Shown piece by piece: positions 2,720-17,316 of a stretch of DNA of 64,000 bases. Location: NCBI GenBank assembly GCA_949297805.1, contig CASFTG010000003.1, positions 67,996 through 131,995 on the forward strand, in the 5' to 3' direction. The notes under the pieces are model-generated. The model made no database searches. It saw nothing but the letters and a program-made list of their open reading frames with translations, and was not told the DNA's origin. A program made the position numbers and the translations under genes. Position 1 is the stretch's first letter. Every line of letters begins with the position of its first letter. This stretch comes from an uncultured bacterium (lineage in GTDB: Bacteria; Bacillota_I; Bacilli_A; RFN20; CAG-826).

Positions 2720-5275
2720 ATGAAAATGAAACCCCGTCGCACCCCGTTTTACCTTTTAGCCGGAATTTTGGGCTTGGCCCTTTCCGGCTGCTCGGCTATC
2801 CCGACCGAAACCCCAGTCGACTTAGCCCCTGAGATCATCGCCTTGAACGCCTCAACCGATGACGAGGGCAAGACCACCTATACCGTCACTTTCAAGGACG
2901 GGACGACCACTACCTTTACCGTTGAGAATGGGAAGGATGGGGCCCCTGGGGCGGCGGGCAATGGAATCAAATCGATCGCCAAGACTTCAAGCGATGGTTT
3001 AGTCGATACCTATACCATCACCTTCACCGATGGGACCAGCACGACCTTCACCATCACCAATGGGGCCTCGGGGTCGGCCACTACCCCGACTACCTTCAAG
3101 GTCAACTTCAACGTCAATGGGGGCGTGATGCCTGCTGACTATAAAGCTGAGGATTATGTTGCCATTGAGAAAGGGACGTTGTTGGATTTACCAATCCCGA
3201 CTCGGCAAGGCGGGGCGTTCGCTGGTTGGTATACCGGTTATCTCCCAACCGACGGGGTATGGAACGCCGCCACCCCGGTCGCTAAGGACTTGACCTTGAT
3301 CGCCAAATGGACCAATCTCGAGGATGCGACTTGGGCCAGTTACCTTCTCGAGCAGCAAAGCGAGATGCAAGAATACTTCTATACTCCTTCCCAATCTTTC
3401 ATCGGGGTTGAATTGATTCCTGAATACAACGATGAGATATTAACTTACGTCGGAAGAATCGGTTTCTGCTTCGATCGGGAAGAGCTTTATGCCCTTGGCG
3501 AAGACATGGATTGGTATTACGCCATCCCCGTCGCTGATTCGATCAAGACGATGTTCAAGACCACTGCCACGAATATCTATAAACAGTTCGCTGACAACGA
3601 GGATTTGGTCGCGGAATTCAAAGATGATTTCGATGCCCTCTTCGCTCAGATCGACACGATGTCGGCCCTGGAAGACGCTCGCGAGTTGAATGAAGAATTC
3701 CAAACTCTCCGTCAACAGGCCGAGGATTACCTCTTTATGTTGGACTTGCCTGCGAGAGCGGAAGAGGCGATCACGAATTTTGAATCCGATTATCTCTTGG
3801 AACTCGATTGCCTGGAACGGATCGGCCTCGCTTCCTATATCGATGAGATCGAAAGATATAAATCGGCCCTCAGCGAAGCGACGAGCCAGTCAGATTTTGA
3901 AAACCGGGTCCGGGCCTTGGATGAGTACACGCAGGCGTTATTTTATGGAGATGGATGGGCGTTCGAGAATCTTCTAAATGACCTTTCTAAGCAGGCGCAG
4001 GCGGAGTTTGATTCCTTAAATTACGATTCCGAATTGGCAGACCAGAATGGATATTCTTATCTTTACGATGAATGTTTGAAACAGATTCAGAATATCCTCA
4101 ACTCCGTTGGTATTTCTAACCTTTGCTATTATTACGAGTCTTTCCAGGATAAATTCAAAGAACTTAAGTATCAGCAAGAGCAATATATTGCTTCCGTCGA
4201 AGAAAAGGCTGAAGCCTTGGCCTATGTCGATGCTAAGATCGCCGAACTCGAGGCTAAAGCGAACGAACTCGGTTACGACTTGGAAGGCAAAGGCTCCTTA
4301 GCCGAACTCCGGAGGCTCCGTGATGAGATTGAGGCCGATTACAATCCAGGGGATTTCGAATCGTATTTAAAAGACAATATTGATAACGCATACCTATATG
4401 TACTAGCCGAGATTGAGATGGGGACCGCCGAAGATCCTGATGCCTTGTTGGCCGAAAAGAAAGAGGCCGCCATCGCGGAACTCGAAACCTCCTTCAATGA
4501 ACTGAAAGCCTATGCCGAGGAAAAAGGATATGTCGATTTCGAGGACAAATACGGAAATATGATCGAGGATTTCCGTGTCCGACTCGAATCCTGCACCGAA
4601 TTGACCGAGCTTTACCAAACGAAGAACGGGTGCGAAACCGAGATTAATAACGCTTACGCCCACATCTCCGGCGAGACCGCGCCCAAGATCGTTATTAAGT
4701 ACGTTAAGCCGTATGAAAAACAATTCGTCGATATCATGGTGATGGATTATCACTACACGACCATCAAAGAAGGGGAATATTATGATGCCAGCTCCCTTTA
4801 CGACGGCTATTCATTCGGTGGATATTATTCCGATCCTGAATTTAACGAATTGATCAGCGAGGATCCTTATTTCAAACCGGATTTCAGCGCCATGAAAGAC
4901 GGCCAATCGGTCTATTTGAAACTCGATATCGAGGATTATTCGATTGCCGCGAAAGATTTCAGCAACTTCTTCGGGCAAGTCAATGACACCATCTTTGGCT
5001 CGTTTGACACTCCCCTTGATCTAGAGGAATTCTATAACGCCGCTTATGGGGTCACCGATAAAACTGGCTATGAGGCGTTATTGGAGATGGCCGAAGGACT
5101 CTTTGTCCCGAACTTCGTGCTAGTGATCCGCGAGCAAATCATCAATCAGCCGGGTGCGGATGAGCTGCCGCCGGAGAAGCAAGAGGTCTTGGAGGAGGCC
5201 GACGCCATGCTCGATACCTGCCAGACCTACGAGGACATCGTGGCGGTCATGGAAGTCCTTGACGCCGTCATCTGA
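2720..5275 (+). CDS. large surface lipoprotein with DGT beta-repeats and InlB B-repeat
   Basis: The 851-residue protein begins with a lysine/arginine-rich signal peptide and the lipobox LSGC, so it should be diacylated and anchored outside the membrane. After a linker come two repeats of about 45 residues. Each has a YTVTFKDG/YTITFTDG strand, a TTTFTV/STTFTI strand and an NG turn, with GKDGAPGAAG between them. A Listeria-Bacteroides (InlB B-type) repeat follows near residues 110-190, ending in GWY and LIAKWT. The remaining ~650 residues are acidic and largely helical, rich in E, A and L, with a second small beta module near residue 660. The start is the ATG after GGGAG; an upstream ATG at 2675 would destroy the signal peptide. 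It is paralogous to the next gene, which begins 12 bases later. Function unknown; adhesion or polymer binding is a guess. Confidence 0.75.
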   Translation: MKMKPRRTPFYLLAGILGLALSGCSAIPTETPVDLAPEIIALNASTDDEGKTTYTVTFKDGTTTTFTVENGKDGAPGAAGNGIKSIAKTSSDGLVDTYTITFTDGTSTTFTITNGASGSATTPTTFKVNFNVNGGVMPADYKAEDYVAIEKGTLLDLPIPTRQGGAFAGWYTGYLPTDGVWNAATPVAKDLTLIAKWTNLEDATWASYLLEQQSEMQEYFYTPSQSFIGVELIPEYNDEILTYVGRIGFCFDREELYALGEDMDWYYAIPVADSIKTMFKTTATNIYKQFADNEDLVAEFKDDFDALFAQIDTMSALEDARELNEEFQTLRQQAEDYLFMLDLPARAEEAITNFESDYLLELDCLERIGLASYIDEIERYKSALSEATSQSDFENRVRALDEYTQALFYGDGWAFENLLNDLSKQAQAEFDSLNYDSELADQNGYSYLYDECLKQIQNILNSVGISNLCYYYESFQDKFKELKYQQEQYIASVEEKAEALAYVDAKIAELEAKANELGYDLEGKGSLAELRRLRDEIEADYNPGDFESYLKDNIDNAYLYVLAEIEMGTAEDPDALLAEKKEAAIAELETSFNELKAYAEEKGYVDFEDKYGNMIEDFRVRLESCTELTELYQTKNGCETEINNAYAHISGETAPKIVIKYVKPYEKQFVDIMVMDYHYTTIKEGEYYDASSLYDGYSFGGYYSDPEFNELISEDPYFKPDFSAMKDGQSVYLKLDIEDYSIAAKDFSNFFGQVNDTIFGSFDTPLDLEEFYNAAYGVTDKTGYEALLEMAEGLFVPNFVLVIREQIINQPGADELPPEKQEVLEEADAMLDTCQTYEDIVAVMEVLDAVI

Positions 5276-11788: not shown

Positions 11789-12129
11789 AGACGACGCTTA
11801 GTTTAGCACGCCCCTATCCAAGGTGGTTCCTTATCTAATGCCGGTTAAAGATGAAGTGCGAGAGGAATTCCTCGGGTTGGCTTCAAGGAATATTTTGCAA
11901 TTCGGGATGTTTTGACTTGGAATTTTTAGCAAAACCGGGCTTTATAAACAGGAATTTTTTGCAAAATCGCTCCTTTTTAGCTGGATTTTTAGCATCAGTA
12001 CTCAGAACATTCGATTTAATCGATGTTTTTTCGTCTTTTGTTTAAAATTAGGAAAATGGCGTCCAATCCCAAATGGTTTTTTCGATCTTTTTCCGGTACT
12101 AAGCATGTTCTTTTGCCAGTAAATATTTT
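11789..12129. repeat. intergenic region with degenerate GGAATTTTTnGCAAAA repeats
   Basis: Four related segments occur in tandem between about 11886 and 12000. They are GGAATATTTTGCAATTCGGG, GGAATTTTTAGCAAAACCGG, GGAATTTTTTGCAAAATCG and GGATTTTTAGCATCAG. Similar GCAAAA/CGG motifs occur before both DUF4143 genes. No coding sequence is supported here. Confidence 0.5.
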
Positions 12130-12160
12130 TGTAATAAAATCGACTTCAGAAGCGTTTGGT
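12130..12160 (+). promoter_or_regulatory. probable ECF-sigma promoter (copy 1)
   Basis: TGTAATAAAA (12130-12139), a 10-base spacer and AAGCGTTTGGT (12150-12160) reproduce, with identical spacing, the element at 14625-14655. It lies 14 bases before the sigma gene start, so the sigma factor probably drives its own gene. Confidence 0.65.
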
Positions 12161-12174
12161 AGGCGAAGGAGACC

Positions 12175-12702
12175 ATGGATCCCTTAATCAAAGAACTCGA
12201 TGCCCATATGCGGCGGTTCCAAGGCGGGGACCTCTCCTCCTTCCCCTCGTTCTATGAACTCACCCACCGGAAGATCTTCTATATCTGCCTCGGTTTAGTG
12301 GGGCAGAAAGAGGATGCCGAGGACATTTGCCAGCAGACTTATGTCCAATGCATCGAGAAGCTATCTTCCTACTCTCCTAACAGCAATCCGTTGTCATTCC
12401 TAGCCACGATTGCCCGGAATTACTGCTATTCCTTATTAAGGAAACGGGAGGAGAGCTTGAGTTACGAGGACGAGGCCCATTCCTCTTCGGGCACTTACGA
12501 TACCTATACAGATTATCAAGGCATTGACAAGATGCTCGAGGTACTCAAACCGGAGGAGAAGGAAATCGTCATCCTGCACGTCATCGATGAGATGAAGTTC
12601 GCCGACATCGCCAAGACCGTCGGGAAGAAACTATCCTCGGTCCTGGTCAGTTACCACCGAGCGATGAAGAAACTCAGGAAGGAGGAGAGCAACCGCTTAT
12701 GA
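12175..12702 (+). CDS. ECF-type RNA polymerase sigma factor
   Basis: The 175-residue protein has a sigma-70 region 2 (QKEDAEDICQQTYVQCIEKL, then SFLATIARNYCYSLLRKR). A flexible acidic linker follows, then region 4 (LKPEEKEIVILHVIDEMKFADIA and VLVSYHRAMKKLRK). No other sigma region is present, as in ECF factors. It directs RNA polymerase to stress- or envelope-type regulons. The ATG is preceded by AAGGAG at only three bases, so initiation may be unusual. Its stop overlaps the anti-sigma start by four bases (ATGA), a typical coupled pair. Confidence 0.9.
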   Translation: MDPLIKELDAHMRRFQGGDLSSFPSFYELTHRKIFYICLGLVGQKEDAEDICQQTYVQCIEKLSSYSPNSNPLSFLATIARNYCYSLLRKREESLSYEDEAHSSSGTYDTYTDYQGIDKMLEVLKPEEKEIVILHVIDEMKFADIAKTVGKKLSSVLVSYHRAMKKLRKEESNRL

Positions 12703-13721
12703 AAAACCGCGACATCAAAAATCGGCTCCGGCAAAGCGCCTCCTCTATCGACGTGCCCGATAACATGCAGGCCACTTTCGATAAGTTGCCTGACACTTTA
12801 ACTATCATAGAACCGAAGAGAAAGAAGCAGCCGAATTGGCTGATTCCCCTTCTAACTGGCGGGGCGGCGGTCTTGGTCTTAGGGGCCGCCATCGGGGTGC
12901 CTTTGGGCTTAAGAAACCGTGACATCATCGATGGGGGAAGCTCCCTTCCTCCTTCGCCATCGCTTACCTATAACTTGACCCAAAAGGAGATGAACGCCTT
13001 TGGCTATCAGGCCTTATCGACCGTCGCCATGGTCGAGGACCTTTCCCCCGATATGCGGAAAGGAAGACGAATAAGCGAAGAGTTGGCCAATCAAGTGGCC
13101 GATGAGGTGGCGTCCTATATGGATGTCGTCGCCTCTTTCTCGGAAAAAGACGCCTTCACCTTCCTCCTGGATGAGGATTCAGGGTTTGAGATCCTCTTCA
13201 ATGATGAAGCGGTCTTTGACCTTGACTTTAACGAAACCCCGGGGAAAGAAAAAGGCGAATACCTTTATAACGGGACCATCCGCGACCTCCATAACGGAGC
13301 GGAATACCGGCTCGTCGGTAAGAAAGAGATCGAGCAGGGGGAAGAGGAGATCGAAGTCACGGTCTATTTATCCGATTCGACCTGGATCGAATCAAAACAC
13401 GAGATGGAAAGCGAGGAGGATGAGATTGAGAATTCCTATGAATACTCTTTCTTCTCCAATGGCAAGCATATCAAGACCATCGAATACGAAGTCGAGATCG
13501 AAGGAATGGAGAATGAGACCGAGCTCACCATCATCGAAGATCGAGTCGAGACCAGCGTCTCCTTCGAATATCTAGGCAACCTGACCGATGGCTATGAATG
13601 CGAATACTCCAAAGAAGGGCCAGGGATTGAAGAGATCGAAGTCGAGATGAAGGTTAAACGCAACCAAGATGGGACTTATACCTTCGTTTTTGAGGATTCG
13701 AATATCAGCCTTATCCGATAG
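12699..13721 (+). CDS. membrane anti-sigma factor
   Basis: The 340-residue protein starts with a short cytosolic region of about 45 residues that should hold the sigma factor. One membrane helix follows (about residues 48-70, PLLTGGAAVLVLGAAIGVPL), then a long acidic ectodomain of about 260 residues. The ectodomain repeats beta-strand patterns such as EYEVEIEGMENETEL. It has the same layout as the lipoprotein at 14681-15604: helical MLxxS/EEL segment, Y-x-D start and repeated acidic strands. No zinc-binding HxxxCxxC motif is seen. Overlap with the sigma gene makes the role clear by context. The signal sensed by the ectodomain is unknown. Confidence 0.75.
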   Translation: MKNRDIKNRLRQSASSIDVPDNMQATFDKLPDTLTIIEPKRKKQPNWLIPLLTGGAAVLVLGAAIGVPLGLRNRDIIDGGSSLPPSPSLTYNLTQKEMNAFGYQALSTVAMVEDLSPDMRKGRRISEELANQVADEVASYMDVVASFSEKDAFTFLLDEDSGFEILFNDEAVFDLDFNETPGKEKGEYLYNGTIRDLHNGAEYRLVGKKEIEQGEEEIEVTVYLSDSTWIESKHEMESEEDEIENSYEYSFFSNGKHIKTIEYEVEIEGMENETELTIIEDRVETSVSFEYLGNLTDGYECEYSKEGPGIEEIEVEMKVKRNQDGTYTFVFEDSNISLIR

Positions 13722-13723
13722 GG

Positions 13724-13729
13724 TATAAT
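13724..13729 (+). promoter_or_regulatory. -10 box TATAAT next to start codon
   Basis: TATAAT lies six bases before ATG 13736, so the transcript would start at or near the A of the start codon. No clear -35 is visible. Confidence 0.45.
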
Positions 13730-13735
13730 CTTGGT

Positions 13736-14140
13736 ATGCGCACCTGTCCCTATTGCAGTTACCCGAATAATGACGATGCCGTCTATTGCTCCAAATGTGG
13801 GCGGCGTCTTGATGCTTTCAGCCCCAATGGGCTCCCGGCTCCGAATCAAACGGCTAAGAAGGCGGATGGCAAAGCCGATTTAGCCAGCGTGGTCTCGATT
13901 GTCCTTGGGATCGTCGGCTTGATCTTTGACGGCTTCTCTTTCTTTGCCGAAGGACTTTGGAGCCTATTCATCATCGGCCTTATCTGCGGCGTTTTGGGGT
14001 TATTATGCGCGGTCCGGAACAAGCTTTATAAGCAGAAAGGCTACGGGATGGCAGGGTTCGTCTTATCCTTATTAGCCACGATCGGGGGCGCGATCATGAC
14101 CTTGCTTTTCGCCCTCGGACTCATTTTGGTCTTAGCTTGA
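13736..14140 (+). CDS. zinc-ribbon membrane protein, DUF4190-like
   Basis: The 134-residue protein starts with a zinc ribbon, CPYC near residue 4 and CSKC near 19. A proline-rich linker follows, then hydrophobic segments near residues 55-80 and 81-98 and another near 105-130 (FVLSLLATIGGAIMTLLFALG). This arrangement matches DUF4190-type proteins. The ribbon would be cytosolic. It has no ribosome-binding site but a -10 box directly before the ATG. The next gene is its paralogue. Role unknown; position between the anti-sigma and its lipoprotein paralogue suggests membership of the same stress locus. Confidence 0.7.
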   Translation: MRTCPYCSYPNNDDAVYCSKCGRRLDAFSPNGLPAPNQTAKKADGKADLASVVSIVLGIVGLIFDGFSFFAEGLWSLFIIGLICGVLGLLCAVRNKLYKQKGYGMAGFVLSLLATIGGAIMTLLFALGLILVLA

Positions 14141-14150
14141 CAAGCGGTGG

Positions 14151-14156
14151 TATAAT
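14151..14156 (+). promoter_or_regulatory. -10 box TATAAT near the start of the second zinc-ribbon gene
   Basis: TATAAT ends nine bases before ATG 14166, leaving at most a leader of two or three bases. TTGGTC at 14126-14131 is a weak -35 with a 19-base spacer. Confidence 0.4.
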
Positions 14157-14165
14157 CTTGACGTT

Positions 14166-14528
14166 ATGAAATACTGTGTTTACTGCGGGCATCAAGTTGA
14201 GGATGAGGCGAAATTCTGCCCCGCCTGTGGCCAGCCGCTGAATCAGCCGGTTGAAACTCCTAGCGATAAGAAAGAAGAAGGTGGGGTCGCCATCGCCTCG
14301 ATGGTCTTGGGCATCTGCTCAATCTCTTTGAACTTTTTCTCCCTCTTCCTCTTTTTCTTCCTCCCCTTCCTTTGTTTTGTGGCCGCCATCGTCGGGCTTT
14401 GCTTGTCGGGGCGGAAAAAGGTATACAAAGGCGGGCCCTTCGGCTTGACGGGCTTCATCACCTCCTTAGTTGGCTTATTCGTTTCGCTTATCGCCATTAT
14501 CATCGTCATCGCCGCCTTAAGCGCCTAA
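14166..14528 (+). CDS. zinc-ribbon membrane protein, DUF4190-like (paralogue)
   Basis: This 120-residue paralogue of the preceding gene has CVYCG near residue 4 and CPACG near 19. It also has GGVAIASMVLGICSISLNFF, a very phenylalanine- and leucine-rich second helix, and a C-terminal helix ending in IIIVIAALSA. It too lacks a Shine-Dalgarno sequence and sits just behind a TATAAT box. A good terminator follows. Confidence 0.7.
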   Translation: MKYCVYCGHQVEDEAKFCPACGQPLNQPVETPSDKKEEGGVAIASMVLGICSISLNFFSLFLFFFLPFLCFVAAIVGLCLSGRKKVYKGGPFGLTGFITSLVGLFVSLIAIIIVIAALSA

Positions 14529-14542
14529 TCTTATATATAAAG

Positions 14543-14570
14543 GCCTCGGTCAAGGGATCGGGGCTTTTTT
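14543..14570 (+). terminator. terminator after zinc-ribbon genes
   Basis: GCCTCGGTC (14543-14551) pairs with GATCGGGGC (14556-14564) around AAGG, with two G-T pairs. TTTTTT follows. Confidence 0.8.
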
Positions 14571-14624
14571 CTTAGCAAAATAGTTTCGATGGAATCAGCC
14601 TTTTTAAAATCTTTTCGTTTTTTG

Positions 14625-14655
14625 TGTAATAAAACGTGTCTCCTAAGCGTTTGGT
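14625..14655 (+). promoter_or_regulatory. probable ECF-sigma promoter (copy 2)
   Basis: TGTAATAAAA (14625-14634), ten bases and AAGCGTTTGGT (14645-14655) duplicate the element before the sigma gene. The gene it serves starts at 14681. Confidence 0.65.
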
Positions 14656-14680
14656 GGGCGTAAGGAAAGGAAAAACCAAT

Positions 14681-15604
14681 ATGAAACATTCCAAACTCAA
14701 ATCCCTCTTCTTCGCCCTTCCGGCCCTCGCCCTCGTTGGCTGTGCCGCTTCCGCGAATGGCGATAAATCCTCCAACCTCACCCCCGGGAACACTCCCTCT
14801 CTTGGCGGATCCAATGAATCGGCTCTGCTTATGAGCCAGGCGGTCATGGGGCTCGATATGCTTAGCAGCTCGGTCTCCGCCCCAAAAATCATGGCTAAGC
14901 AAGCTTCCTATACTCCGACGGAAGAAGCCGCCCTCGCCGATGAGATCTTCTCCTACATCGAAGACTTCGATTCGATCATCGGTTACAACCCCTCGACCAT
15001 CGAGGTGTTGGAGTCGGATGATGCCAACTATGAAACCCTCTATTCCCTCACCCTCGAAGGGGAGGAATACCGCCTCTACTTCAATAAGGTCGCCGAGCAT
15101 ACCGAAGTCGATCGGGATGACCATGAAGAAGAGATCACCGAATACACTCGTTATGAAGGGGTTGCCTATAAAGGCGAGCAATCCTTCGACTTCATCGGCC
15201 ATCACGAGATCGAGACCGAAGGAAGAGAAGTTGAGGATTCGATGGAGTTTATCTTCCAAACCGATCGGAAGAACTACATCTCCTTCACCCAGGAAAGCGA
15301 AAACGACGAGAACGAATACGAGCTCGAACTGGTCCAGAATGGCCGGACCGTCTTAGAAAAGGAGTTCGGCATCGAGATCGGGCGGAATGGCTCGATCGAG
15401 GTCAGCTTCGAGATCGAAGAAAACGGGAAGGAAAAGGAAATCGAGATCCTCAAGACCACCCAGAATGGGGCGACGGTCTACCTCATCGAGATCGAGCAGC
15501 GGGGCGAATCCTTAGCCAAGGTTAAGGAAGAAGCCCGGGATGATGGTACCTATTTGGTCTTAGAATTCGTCGGCGGTGGGACTTACGAACGCCTATTAGC
15601 CTAG
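14681..15604 (+). CDS. lipoprotein resembling the anti-sigma ectodomain
   Basis: The 307-residue protein has a signal peptide ending in LVGC and a low-complexity linker. A domain of about 240 residues follows with repeated acidic beta strands (YSLTLEGEEYRLYF, EYELELVQNG, SFEIEENGKEKEIEI). Segment order and composition match the ectodomain of the anti-sigma factor at 12699. The start is ATG 14681 with AAGGAAAGG upstream; an earlier in-frame ATG at 14636 lies inside the promoter. It is probably a direct target of the sigma factor. A plausible role is a decoy or feedback sensor for the same envelope signal, which is inference. Confidence 0.7.
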   Translation: MKHSKLKSLFFALPALALVGCAASANGDKSSNLTPGNTPSLGGSNESALLMSQAVMGLDMLSSSVSAPKIMAKQASYTPTEEAALADEIFSYIEDFDSIIGYNPSTIEVLESDDANYETLYSLTLEGEEYRLYFNKVAEHTEVDRDDHEEEITEYTRYEGVAYKGEQSFDFIGHHEIETEGREVEDSMEFIFQTDRKNYISFTQESENDENEYELELVQNGRTVLEKEFGIEIGRNGSIEVSFEIEENGKEKEIEILKTTQNGATVYLIEIEQRGESLAKVKEEARDDGTYLVLEFVGGGTYERLLA

Positions 15605-15610
15605 CAGGAT

Positions 15611-15640
15611 ATCCCCTCCGGAAACGGCGGGGATTTTCTT
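15611..15640 (+). terminator. terminator after the ECF-regulated lipoprotein
   Basis: ATCCCC-T-CCG and CGG-C-GGGGAT pair around a GAAA tetraloop (15611-15634). TTTTC and a long T tract follow. Confidence 0.8.
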
Positions 15641-15651
15641 TTTTATTTTTC

Positions 15652-16049: not shown

Positions 16050-17316
16050 ATGGCTTATATCAAACGAGCAGCGGAAAGTTCAATCGCAAGTTTTTCGAAG
16101 ATGTTTCCCGTCTTATTAATCACTGGGCCCCGTCAAGTAGGGAAAACCACGATTCTACAGCGACTCGCCGAAGAGGAAAAAACTCAAGGGATTGATCGGA
16201 AATACGTTACTCTGGACGATCCGAACGCCCGTTATTTAGCCAAAAGTGATCCCGGTTTGTTCTTGCAGCGGTTTTGCCCACCGGTTTTGATCGACGAGAT
16301 TCAATACGCCCCGAATTGTTACCTTACATTAAAATCCAGGTTGACCGGTCTCGAAAAAAAGGCGACTTTTGGATCACCGGCTCCCAAGCTTTCCATTTGA
16401 TGAAAAACGTCAGCGAGAGCCTCGCTGGTCGGGTGGGGATCGTAAATTTGCTTGGATTGTCCGACGCGGAGATATTCGGTGAACCAAGTGAGCCATTTAG
16501 AGTTGATCGAGATTTCCTATTGAAACGGCTTTCGGTACGCAAACCGCGGAATCTCAACGACGTTTATCGCCTGATTTTCACCGGCTCGATGCCTTCTCTT
16601 TATGCCGACGAAGGGTATGACTGGGAAAAATATTATTATTCTTACGTCAACACTTATCTTGAACGTGATGTCAGGGAATTGGCGCAAGTCGGGGACATAA
16701 TGGAATTCTATATTTCATGACGGTGGTACCCGCCTATACCTCTAAGCCGGTAGTCTATGAACAATTGGCCGTCAACGCTGGCATTTCGGCTGTAACGGCC
16801 AAGAAGTGGCTTTCGATATTGGTGGCATCGAATATTGTGGCTTTGGTCCAACCCTACCATAGCAACGCCCTTACTAGAGCGGTCAAAATGCCCCTCCTCC
16901 ACTTCCTTGATACCGGTTTGGCGGCATATCTGTTACGATGGAGCAGTCCCGAAACATTGGAAAAGGGTTTGATGTCGGGCGCCTTCTTTGAAACTTATGT
17001 CTTTTCCGAAATTTACAAGAGTTATATCAATGCTGGTAAGGACCCCCCGATTTATTACTATCGCGACCGCGATCAAAAAGAAATCGATCTACTTCTTTTC
17101 CAAGATGGCATCATTAATCCGATCGAAATCAGAAAATCCGTATCCCCGGGCCGGAATGCAATCAAGAATTTCGGGGTGCTTGATCCCATAGAAAAAACGT
17201 TTAGCGGTTTAGAATCTCTCCGTGTGCATATCGGAACCGGGGCGGTAGTTTGCCTTGCTGAGGATGTTTTGCCGATCGACCAAAATAACTATTGTGTCCC
17301 GGCTTGGTTGATTTAG
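16050..17316 (+). pseudogene. ATP-binding protein AAA_14/DUF4143, two frameshifts
   Basis: Three successive frames encode consecutive parts of one DUF4143 protein. Part one (16050 to about 16310) has Walker A GPRQVGKTT and VLIDEIQYAP. Part two (to about 16710) has GDFWITGSQAF and YLERDVRELAQVGD. Part three (to 17316) has the KKWLSILVASNIV and DLLLFQDG regions. The reading slips once near 16310 in a CCCC run (YAP should continue ELLPY) and once near 16713 in a TTT run. Both look like loss of one base. The gene is probably dead, but two homopolymer slips could also be sequencing errors. It lies between tRNA genes, a common insertion site for accessory DNA. Confidence 0.8.

Follow-up and report, generated by a model that had tools for sequence, protein, structure and literature searches.

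Among the ECF sigma factors of Bacillota, the autoregulated (group IV) systems represented by SigW and SigX of B. subtilis and by Tt-RpoE1/Tt-TolB of Thermoanaerobacter are built around a sigma factor consisting of the sigma2 and sigma4 domains only. The adjoining gene encodes an anti-sigma factor of the membrane whose N-terminal, cytoplasmic part is short, and the promoter before the sigma gene combines a set -35/-10 register with CGT in the -10 element. AAC is the usual -35 core of ECF promoters. The AAC/CGT promoter is no longer taken as defining the ECF class (PMC8103513), and narrow autoregulated ECF regulons are already known (ECF41, PMC3426412; reviewed in PMC8103513).

The locus analysed here, from an uncultured gut-type member of the Bacilli, shares the domain content, gene order, anti-sigma layout, promoter position, register and CGT of these group IV systems. 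Judging from sequence, it is considered highly probable (about 0.88) that its two bipartite sites are promoters read by the ECF sigma factor encoded beside them, and that the two transcription units behind them constitute the whole detectable regulon.

Probable promoter sites and genes of the locus

The window (the whole stretch of DNA that was analysed, 64,000 nucleotides) belongs to a genome of 1,653,160 bases which is 94% complete. The features of the locus are as follows:

12130-12139, + strand: -35 element TGTAATAAAA of promoter 1, with TGTAAT at -36 to -31
12153-12160, + strand: -10 element CGTTTGGT of promoter 1, register from PMC3397946
12175-12702, + strand: ECF sigma factor, 175 amino acids (Pfam Sigma70_r2, 1.8e-12, and Sigma70_r4_2, 1.6e-11; TIGR02937)
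12699-13721, + strand: probable anti-sigma factor, 340 amino acids (from position and architecture)
13736-14140, + strand: zinc-ribbon membrane protein, 134 amino acids
14166-14528, + strand: zinc-ribbon membrane protein, 120 amino acids
14539-14568, + strand: intrinsic-terminator hairpin with T run (folding: -18.3 kcal/mol, z -5.3)
14625-14634, + strand: -35 element TGTAATAAAA of promoter 2 (from sequence and conservation)
14648-14655, + strand: -10 element CGTTTGGT of promoter 2, followed by the conserved GGCGTAAG
14681-15604, + strand: lipoprotein, 307 amino acids, with a lipobox ending in Cys21
15616-15643, + strand: terminator-like hairpin with T-rich tail, weak when taken alone (6 found by the scan against 5.2 expected)

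A preliminary description of this DNA had reported an identical bipartite motif, TGTAATAAAA-N10-AAGCGTTTGGT, before the sigma gene and the lipoprotein gene and nowhere else. The motif was found exactly so at 12130-12160 and 14625-14655, on the + strand in both cases, with no third copy in the window (0 expected, 100 shuffles). The genome-wide motif search which that description had called for was run and returned the same two promoters only. Two places alone were likewise found across the genome when up to three mismatches to TGTAATAAAA-N13-CGTTTGGT were allowed, or when TGTAATAA was combined with CGTTTNG at any spacer from 12 to 18, and these were again the same two sites. A looser genome search for extra regulon sites (2 mismatches) gave 28 matches against 22 for a reversed control, which is background level. 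Used as the search pattern that had been proposed for it, the motif thus defines a regulon of the sigma operon and the lipoprotein transcript only.

The spacers of the two sites are unlike (tcgacttcag at site 1 and cgtgtctcct at site 2) and their outer flanks also differ, so the sites are not one duplicated stretch. Base conservation in 14 genomes placed the core motif at TGTAATAAA-N14-CGTTTGGT, followed by GGCG, and the sequence downstream of the core was TAGGCG at sigma genes and GGCGTAAG at lipoprotein genes. The 'AA' that was first taken as the opening of the second half is not conserved in relatives. Only the window's genome has two identical copies; the sites of relatives show some tolerance, as with A or G at the tenth base and with A replacing the first G of GGT.

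When the C of CGTTT was set at -13, as in the mapped Tt-RpoE1 promoter (PMC3397946), TGTAAT fell at -36 to -31, as does the -35 element of SigW. The CGT of the -10 element and the ECF register are present, while the -35 core is AAT instead of AAC in the window's clade and either AAT or AAC in relatives. On the Tt-RpoE1 precedent, transcription would start at about 12162-12166 from promoter 1 and about 14658-14662 from promoter 2. These predicted starts lie some 2-7 bases past the second element as originally drawn, so that the range of 5-10 bases given with it needs widening. A gap of 14 bases separates site 1 from the sigma gene, and the conserved GGCGTAAG is the predicted 5' end of the lipoprotein transcript.

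Two observations on transcript leaders were made in relatives. The sigma start codon in G014 (L065:5432 region) is about 16 bases past the C of the -10 element, and the mRNA may therefore be almost leaderless. In genus g24 (L066:13135-13160, L123, L127, L129 and others) a short inverted repeat follows GGCGTAAG upstream of the lipoprotein gene, its arms varying in sequence but still able to pair (gaggc...gcctc, ggggctcgagcccc, gtggtcaaaaccac); the repeat may stabilise the mRNA, and folding detected no such repeat in the window's species.

The sigma factor ends with its sigma4 domain and is the only ECF sigma factor found in the genome, which counts, together with the presence of only two sites genome-wide, in favour of reading the sites as its promoters. 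Sigma region 2 had two other matches in the genome, one being RpoD and the other a sigma-70-type protein whose gene comes directly after that of RpoD, on contig C1 outside the window (L135:1470-2777 and 2774-3646). The latter, of 290 amino acids, is a tandem rpoD paralogue whose gene overlaps the rpoD stop codon. The start of the 340-amino-acid gene overlaps the stop of the sigma gene by 4 bases, and its product is predicted to have about 45 residues in the cytoplasm and to cross the membrane by a helix at about 48-67, the ectodomain being very acidic; one membrane helix was found in 14 of 14 relatives. Since it matched no curated family above cut-off (Pfam, TIGR), its designation as a probable anti-sigma factor rests on position and architecture. 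From sequence we infer both its anti-sigma activity and the binding of the promoters by the sigma factor.

The zinc-ribbon proteins were considered as conserved parts of the circuit and rejected, since no genomes beyond the closest three have them; they are absent from G014, G015 and G053. A gene for a secreted endonuclease-I protein with Ig-like domains lies between the anti-sigma and lipoprotein genes of G014 (L065:1540-3858), so this slot varies between species. The hairpin at 14539-14568, which was absent from the output of the terminator scan and was detected by folding, separates the sigma operon from the lipoprotein gene. As this strong terminator precedes site 2, the lipoprotein gene needs a promoter of its own. 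Elsewhere in the window, three overlapping frames (16050-16400, 16274-16720 and 16717-17316) together cover an AAA_14/DUF4143 ATPase gene at 16050-17316, indicating either a broken gene or sequence errors.

Conservation and co-divergence of promoter and sigma factor

Candidatus Alloenteromonas pullicola and Ca. A. pullistercoris, which the NCBI taxonomy places in Bacillota incertae sedis, are among the relatives in a public collection; the Alloenteromonas literature search yielded only a naming list. Both sites were found in 15 of the 224 genomes of the family, and a close lipoprotein (E <1e-110) was found in exactly those 15 and in no others of the 224 searched. In each of the 15, one site is upstream of the sigma gene and the other upstream of the lipoprotein gene, and the spacing of the motif halves is fixed among close relatives. 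The site is retained with the lipoprotein gene where that gene lies 5-8 kb away (G248 and G250) and where it is on another contig (G241). G009 encodes a 100% identical sigma protein and has the promoter unchanged, yet the sequence immediately preceding that promoter is unrelated.

More distant relatives of the lipoprotein were identified with a profile in 58 further genomes. At the 24 divergent loci examined, the lipoprotein gene lies beside a diverged sigma gene, with an anti-sigma gene detectable between them in most, and the circuit of sigma factor, anti-sigma factor and lipoprotein recurs across related genera. The upstream sites of these trios take the form TCCAAYAA-N14-16-xGT, in the same register as in close relatives, with CGTATTTA, CGTCTTTA and TGTTRATA as -10 variants. 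The pattern CCAAYAA-N14-16-xGT occurred upstream of 22 of the 24 sigma genes and 23 of the 24 lipoprotein genes, compared to 2.6% of windows drawn at random from these loci (real sites included) and 0.25% of shuffles, and in 22 of the 24 trios both genes had a site (TCCAAYAA-N15-xGT); these counts are descriptive only, since the pattern was derived from those very upstream regions, and they take in related genomes which are not independent of each other. Among the 24 trios a clear site was missing in G029 and at the sigma gene of G041. In these AT-rich genomes, counting plain matches gave too weak a signal for pairing upstream regions de novo, and the fixed-register search was clearer.

In a tree of the sigma factors, the TGTAAT and TCCAAY types were split by one branch (support 100/99), yet genera g1 and g24 each hold both promoter types; promoter type therefore follows the sigma clade and not the genus. 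In the SigW complex, G-35 is contacted by R175, A-34 by T171 and the G opposite C-31 by K170 (PMC6713349). When matched by PDB profile alignment, these residues correspond to R162, V158 and L157 of the window's sigma factor. R162 was present in 14 of 14 TGTAAT-type sigma factors aligned, all with G-35 promoters, while the same position is N, Q, E or K in TCCAAY-type sigma factors, whose promoters have C-35. Position 158, aligned with SigW T171, shows V158 versus W158, and L157 occupies the place of K170, whose contact with the G opposite -31 goes with C-31. The positions which lose purine or template-G contacts are those with a changed residue. The TGTAAT/TCCAAY switch coincides with changes at contact positions of region 4.2, which is consistency and not proof, because many other sigma columns, besides those contacting DNA, also separate the two clades.

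The claim that the motif is probably the sigma factor's own promoter is supported by register, co-occurrence, conservation amid diverged flanks, co-divergence and the region 4.2 agreement, and the same observations bear on two other explanations of the paired sites. Copies identical over 21 specified bases could reflect chance, or a recent duplication which carried the promoter along; this was refuted by the unlike spacers and flanks, the expectation of zero copies and the retention of the sites in 15 genomes with diverged surroundings, and its probability is negligible. Two widely spaced half-elements could, on the other hand, form a bipartite operator for another DNA-binding regulator, with the housekeeping sigma factor transcribing both genes, and a sigma-70-like match at 12113-12140 does overlap promoter 1. 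Such matches, however, numbered 2 against 3.2 expected in shuffles, with none listed upstream of the lipoprotein gene, and the element is not palindromic, sits in the exact -36/-13 ECF register and changes with the sigma clade and its region 4.2 residues, all of which makes an operator very improbable.

The lipoprotein and the anti-sigma ectodomain

Alignment of 14 anti-sigma proteins to 14 lipoproteins with hhalign gave a probability of 99.2 over 237 columns (98.9% with the ectodomains alone), while controls gave 0.1-0.4% for shuffled columns and 3.8% for reversed sequence. The anti-sigma ectodomain and the lipoprotein are alike in net charge (about -32 to -50) and in pI (near 4.1); as the signal vanishes on shuffling or reversal, acidity alone cannot explain the likeness. 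Single BLAST comparisons of the two proteins were weak (E 0.013) and profiles were needed; in divergent clades the lipoprotein profile also matched the anti-sigma protein (e.g. 1.5e-23, G098). The lipobox Cys21 was invariant (14/14), in a context of the L-x-[GS]-C type in nearly all. These profile comparisons identify the lipoprotein and the anti-sigma ectodomain as paralogues, so that the sensor and its sole dedicated output would share one very acidic domain.

AlphaFold models (mean pLDDT 73.7 for the lipoprotein and 63.3 for the anti-sigma factor, the N-terminal part of which is unreliable) predicted a helix and a long beta meander in both proteins. Foldseek gave no match at E <= 0.001 for either beta-rich domain (best E 0.07), and a PDB sequence search with the lipoprotein profile gave nothing significant. 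Relatives proposed by VIA-align were rejected, as Z <= 9.7 and an rmsd mostly >5 to porin-like sheets are at the level of a common arrangement.

If the sites are the sigma factor's promoters, both would be read by RNA polymerase loaded with the ECF sigma factor encoded beside them, and the sigma factor would activate its own operon (sigma, anti-sigma and, in the window's species, the two zinc-ribbon membrane proteins) as well as the separate lipoprotein transcript behind the terminator. It is the common promoter which points to positive autoregulation. By the general ECF scheme, the membrane anti-sigma factor would hold the sigma factor at rest, and a signal at its ectodomain would release it; positive autoregulation would then raise the levels of both, with the lipoprotein made alongside. 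An anchored copy of the sensor, produced only upon sensor firing, could dampen the response by competing for the sensor's ligand, and in the simplest feedback the lipoprotein would soak up the signal or shield the anti-sigma factor.

Being a paralogue with the same strong negative charge, the lipoprotein may bind the ligand or partner of the ectodomain, and a feedback role through that common ligand or partner is put forward tentatively. Its homeostatic form, in which the acidic copy (about -40) is a decoy that soaks up the same ligand, protects the cell and ends the response, is rather doubtful; the ligand of such a decoy would perhaps be cationic, for example an antimicrobial peptide or lysozyme. 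A plain effector (e.g. envelope-protecting or adhesive), resembling the ectodomain because it binds the same surface molecule, has close to an even chance under the same promoter assignment and is about as likely as feedback. In favour of such an effector, sensor and regulated products have domain types in common in the cellulosome SigI/RsgI systems. The small set of genes controlled by Mycobacterium SigK similarly includes the lipoprotein gene mpt83 (PMC7509140). That the lipoprotein is the sole dedicated target, and is homologous over the 237 columns, fits feedback about equally. With the promoters again as assigned, the lipoprotein might instead be a co-inhibitor which binds the anti-sigma ectodomain and guards it against cleavage, as RseB protects RseA. 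Both proteins belong to the same regulon and compartment, and domain duplicates often pair together; the strongly negative charge of both domains, however, disfavours direct pairing without a bridging ligand. As to an RseB-like fold, Foldseek gave no match at E <= 0.001 and only general beta-sheet resemblances. An RseB-like partner is unlikely, and less likely than either an effector or feedback.

Comparison with described ECF circuits

The locus is unlike SigW, SigX and Tt-RpoE1 in its -35 element, which is TGTAATAAA here (AAT, not AAC) and TCCAAYAA in relatives, in a region 4.2 without K170- and T171-type contacts, in an anti-sigma factor of no known family and in a regulon of two transcripts only. 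It resembles ECF41 in having a single dedicated target beyond the sigma gene and a highly conserved common promoter; ECF41 factors carry a fused C-terminal regulatory domain, have enzyme targets and use TGTCACA-n16-CGTC promoters (PMC3426412). Membership of ECF41 was rejected, as the 175-amino-acid sigma factor ends with sigma4 and its promoter is unlike that sequence. RpoE has a broad regulon, unlike the two-transcript regulon described here, and RseB, unlike this lipoprotein, is not known to be a paralogue of the ectodomain of RseA. The RpoE-RseA-RseB system of Enterobacteria is similar in that sigma factor, membrane anti-sigma factor and extracytoplasmic protein form one self-activated circuit (PMC8103513).

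Clostridium thermocellum SigI/RsgI and Mycobacterium SigK/RskA are likewise sigma/anti-sigma pairs with targets that include secreted or lipid-anchored proteins. SigI is autoregulated (PMC4711584), as the window's sigma factor would be; the regulons of SigI and SigK are, however, larger, and SigI merely resembles ECF factors. Paralogy of ectodomain and lipoprotein was not found in the SigI/RsgI and SigK/RskA literature searched, nor was a description of this sigma/anti-sigma/lipoprotein trio, or a report of any circuit with a paralogue of the anti-sigma ectodomain as its only dedicated target, in a literature search covering few subscription papers.

The new element compared to these systems is an ECF sigma factor whose sole dedicated output is paralogous to the ectodomain of its anti-sigma factor. 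For a group of gut bacteria that are uncultured and whose regulation has hardly been described, the locus provides a complete minimal sigma circuit (one sigma factor, one anti-sigma factor, two promoters and one output), and an output paralogous to the sensor offers a testable feedback design for signalling across the membrane. Together with its relatives it also provides a natural series of promoter/sigma pairs in which -35 bases and region 4.2 residues have changed together, which is useful for deciphering how ECF factors recognise promoters and for building orthogonal switches.
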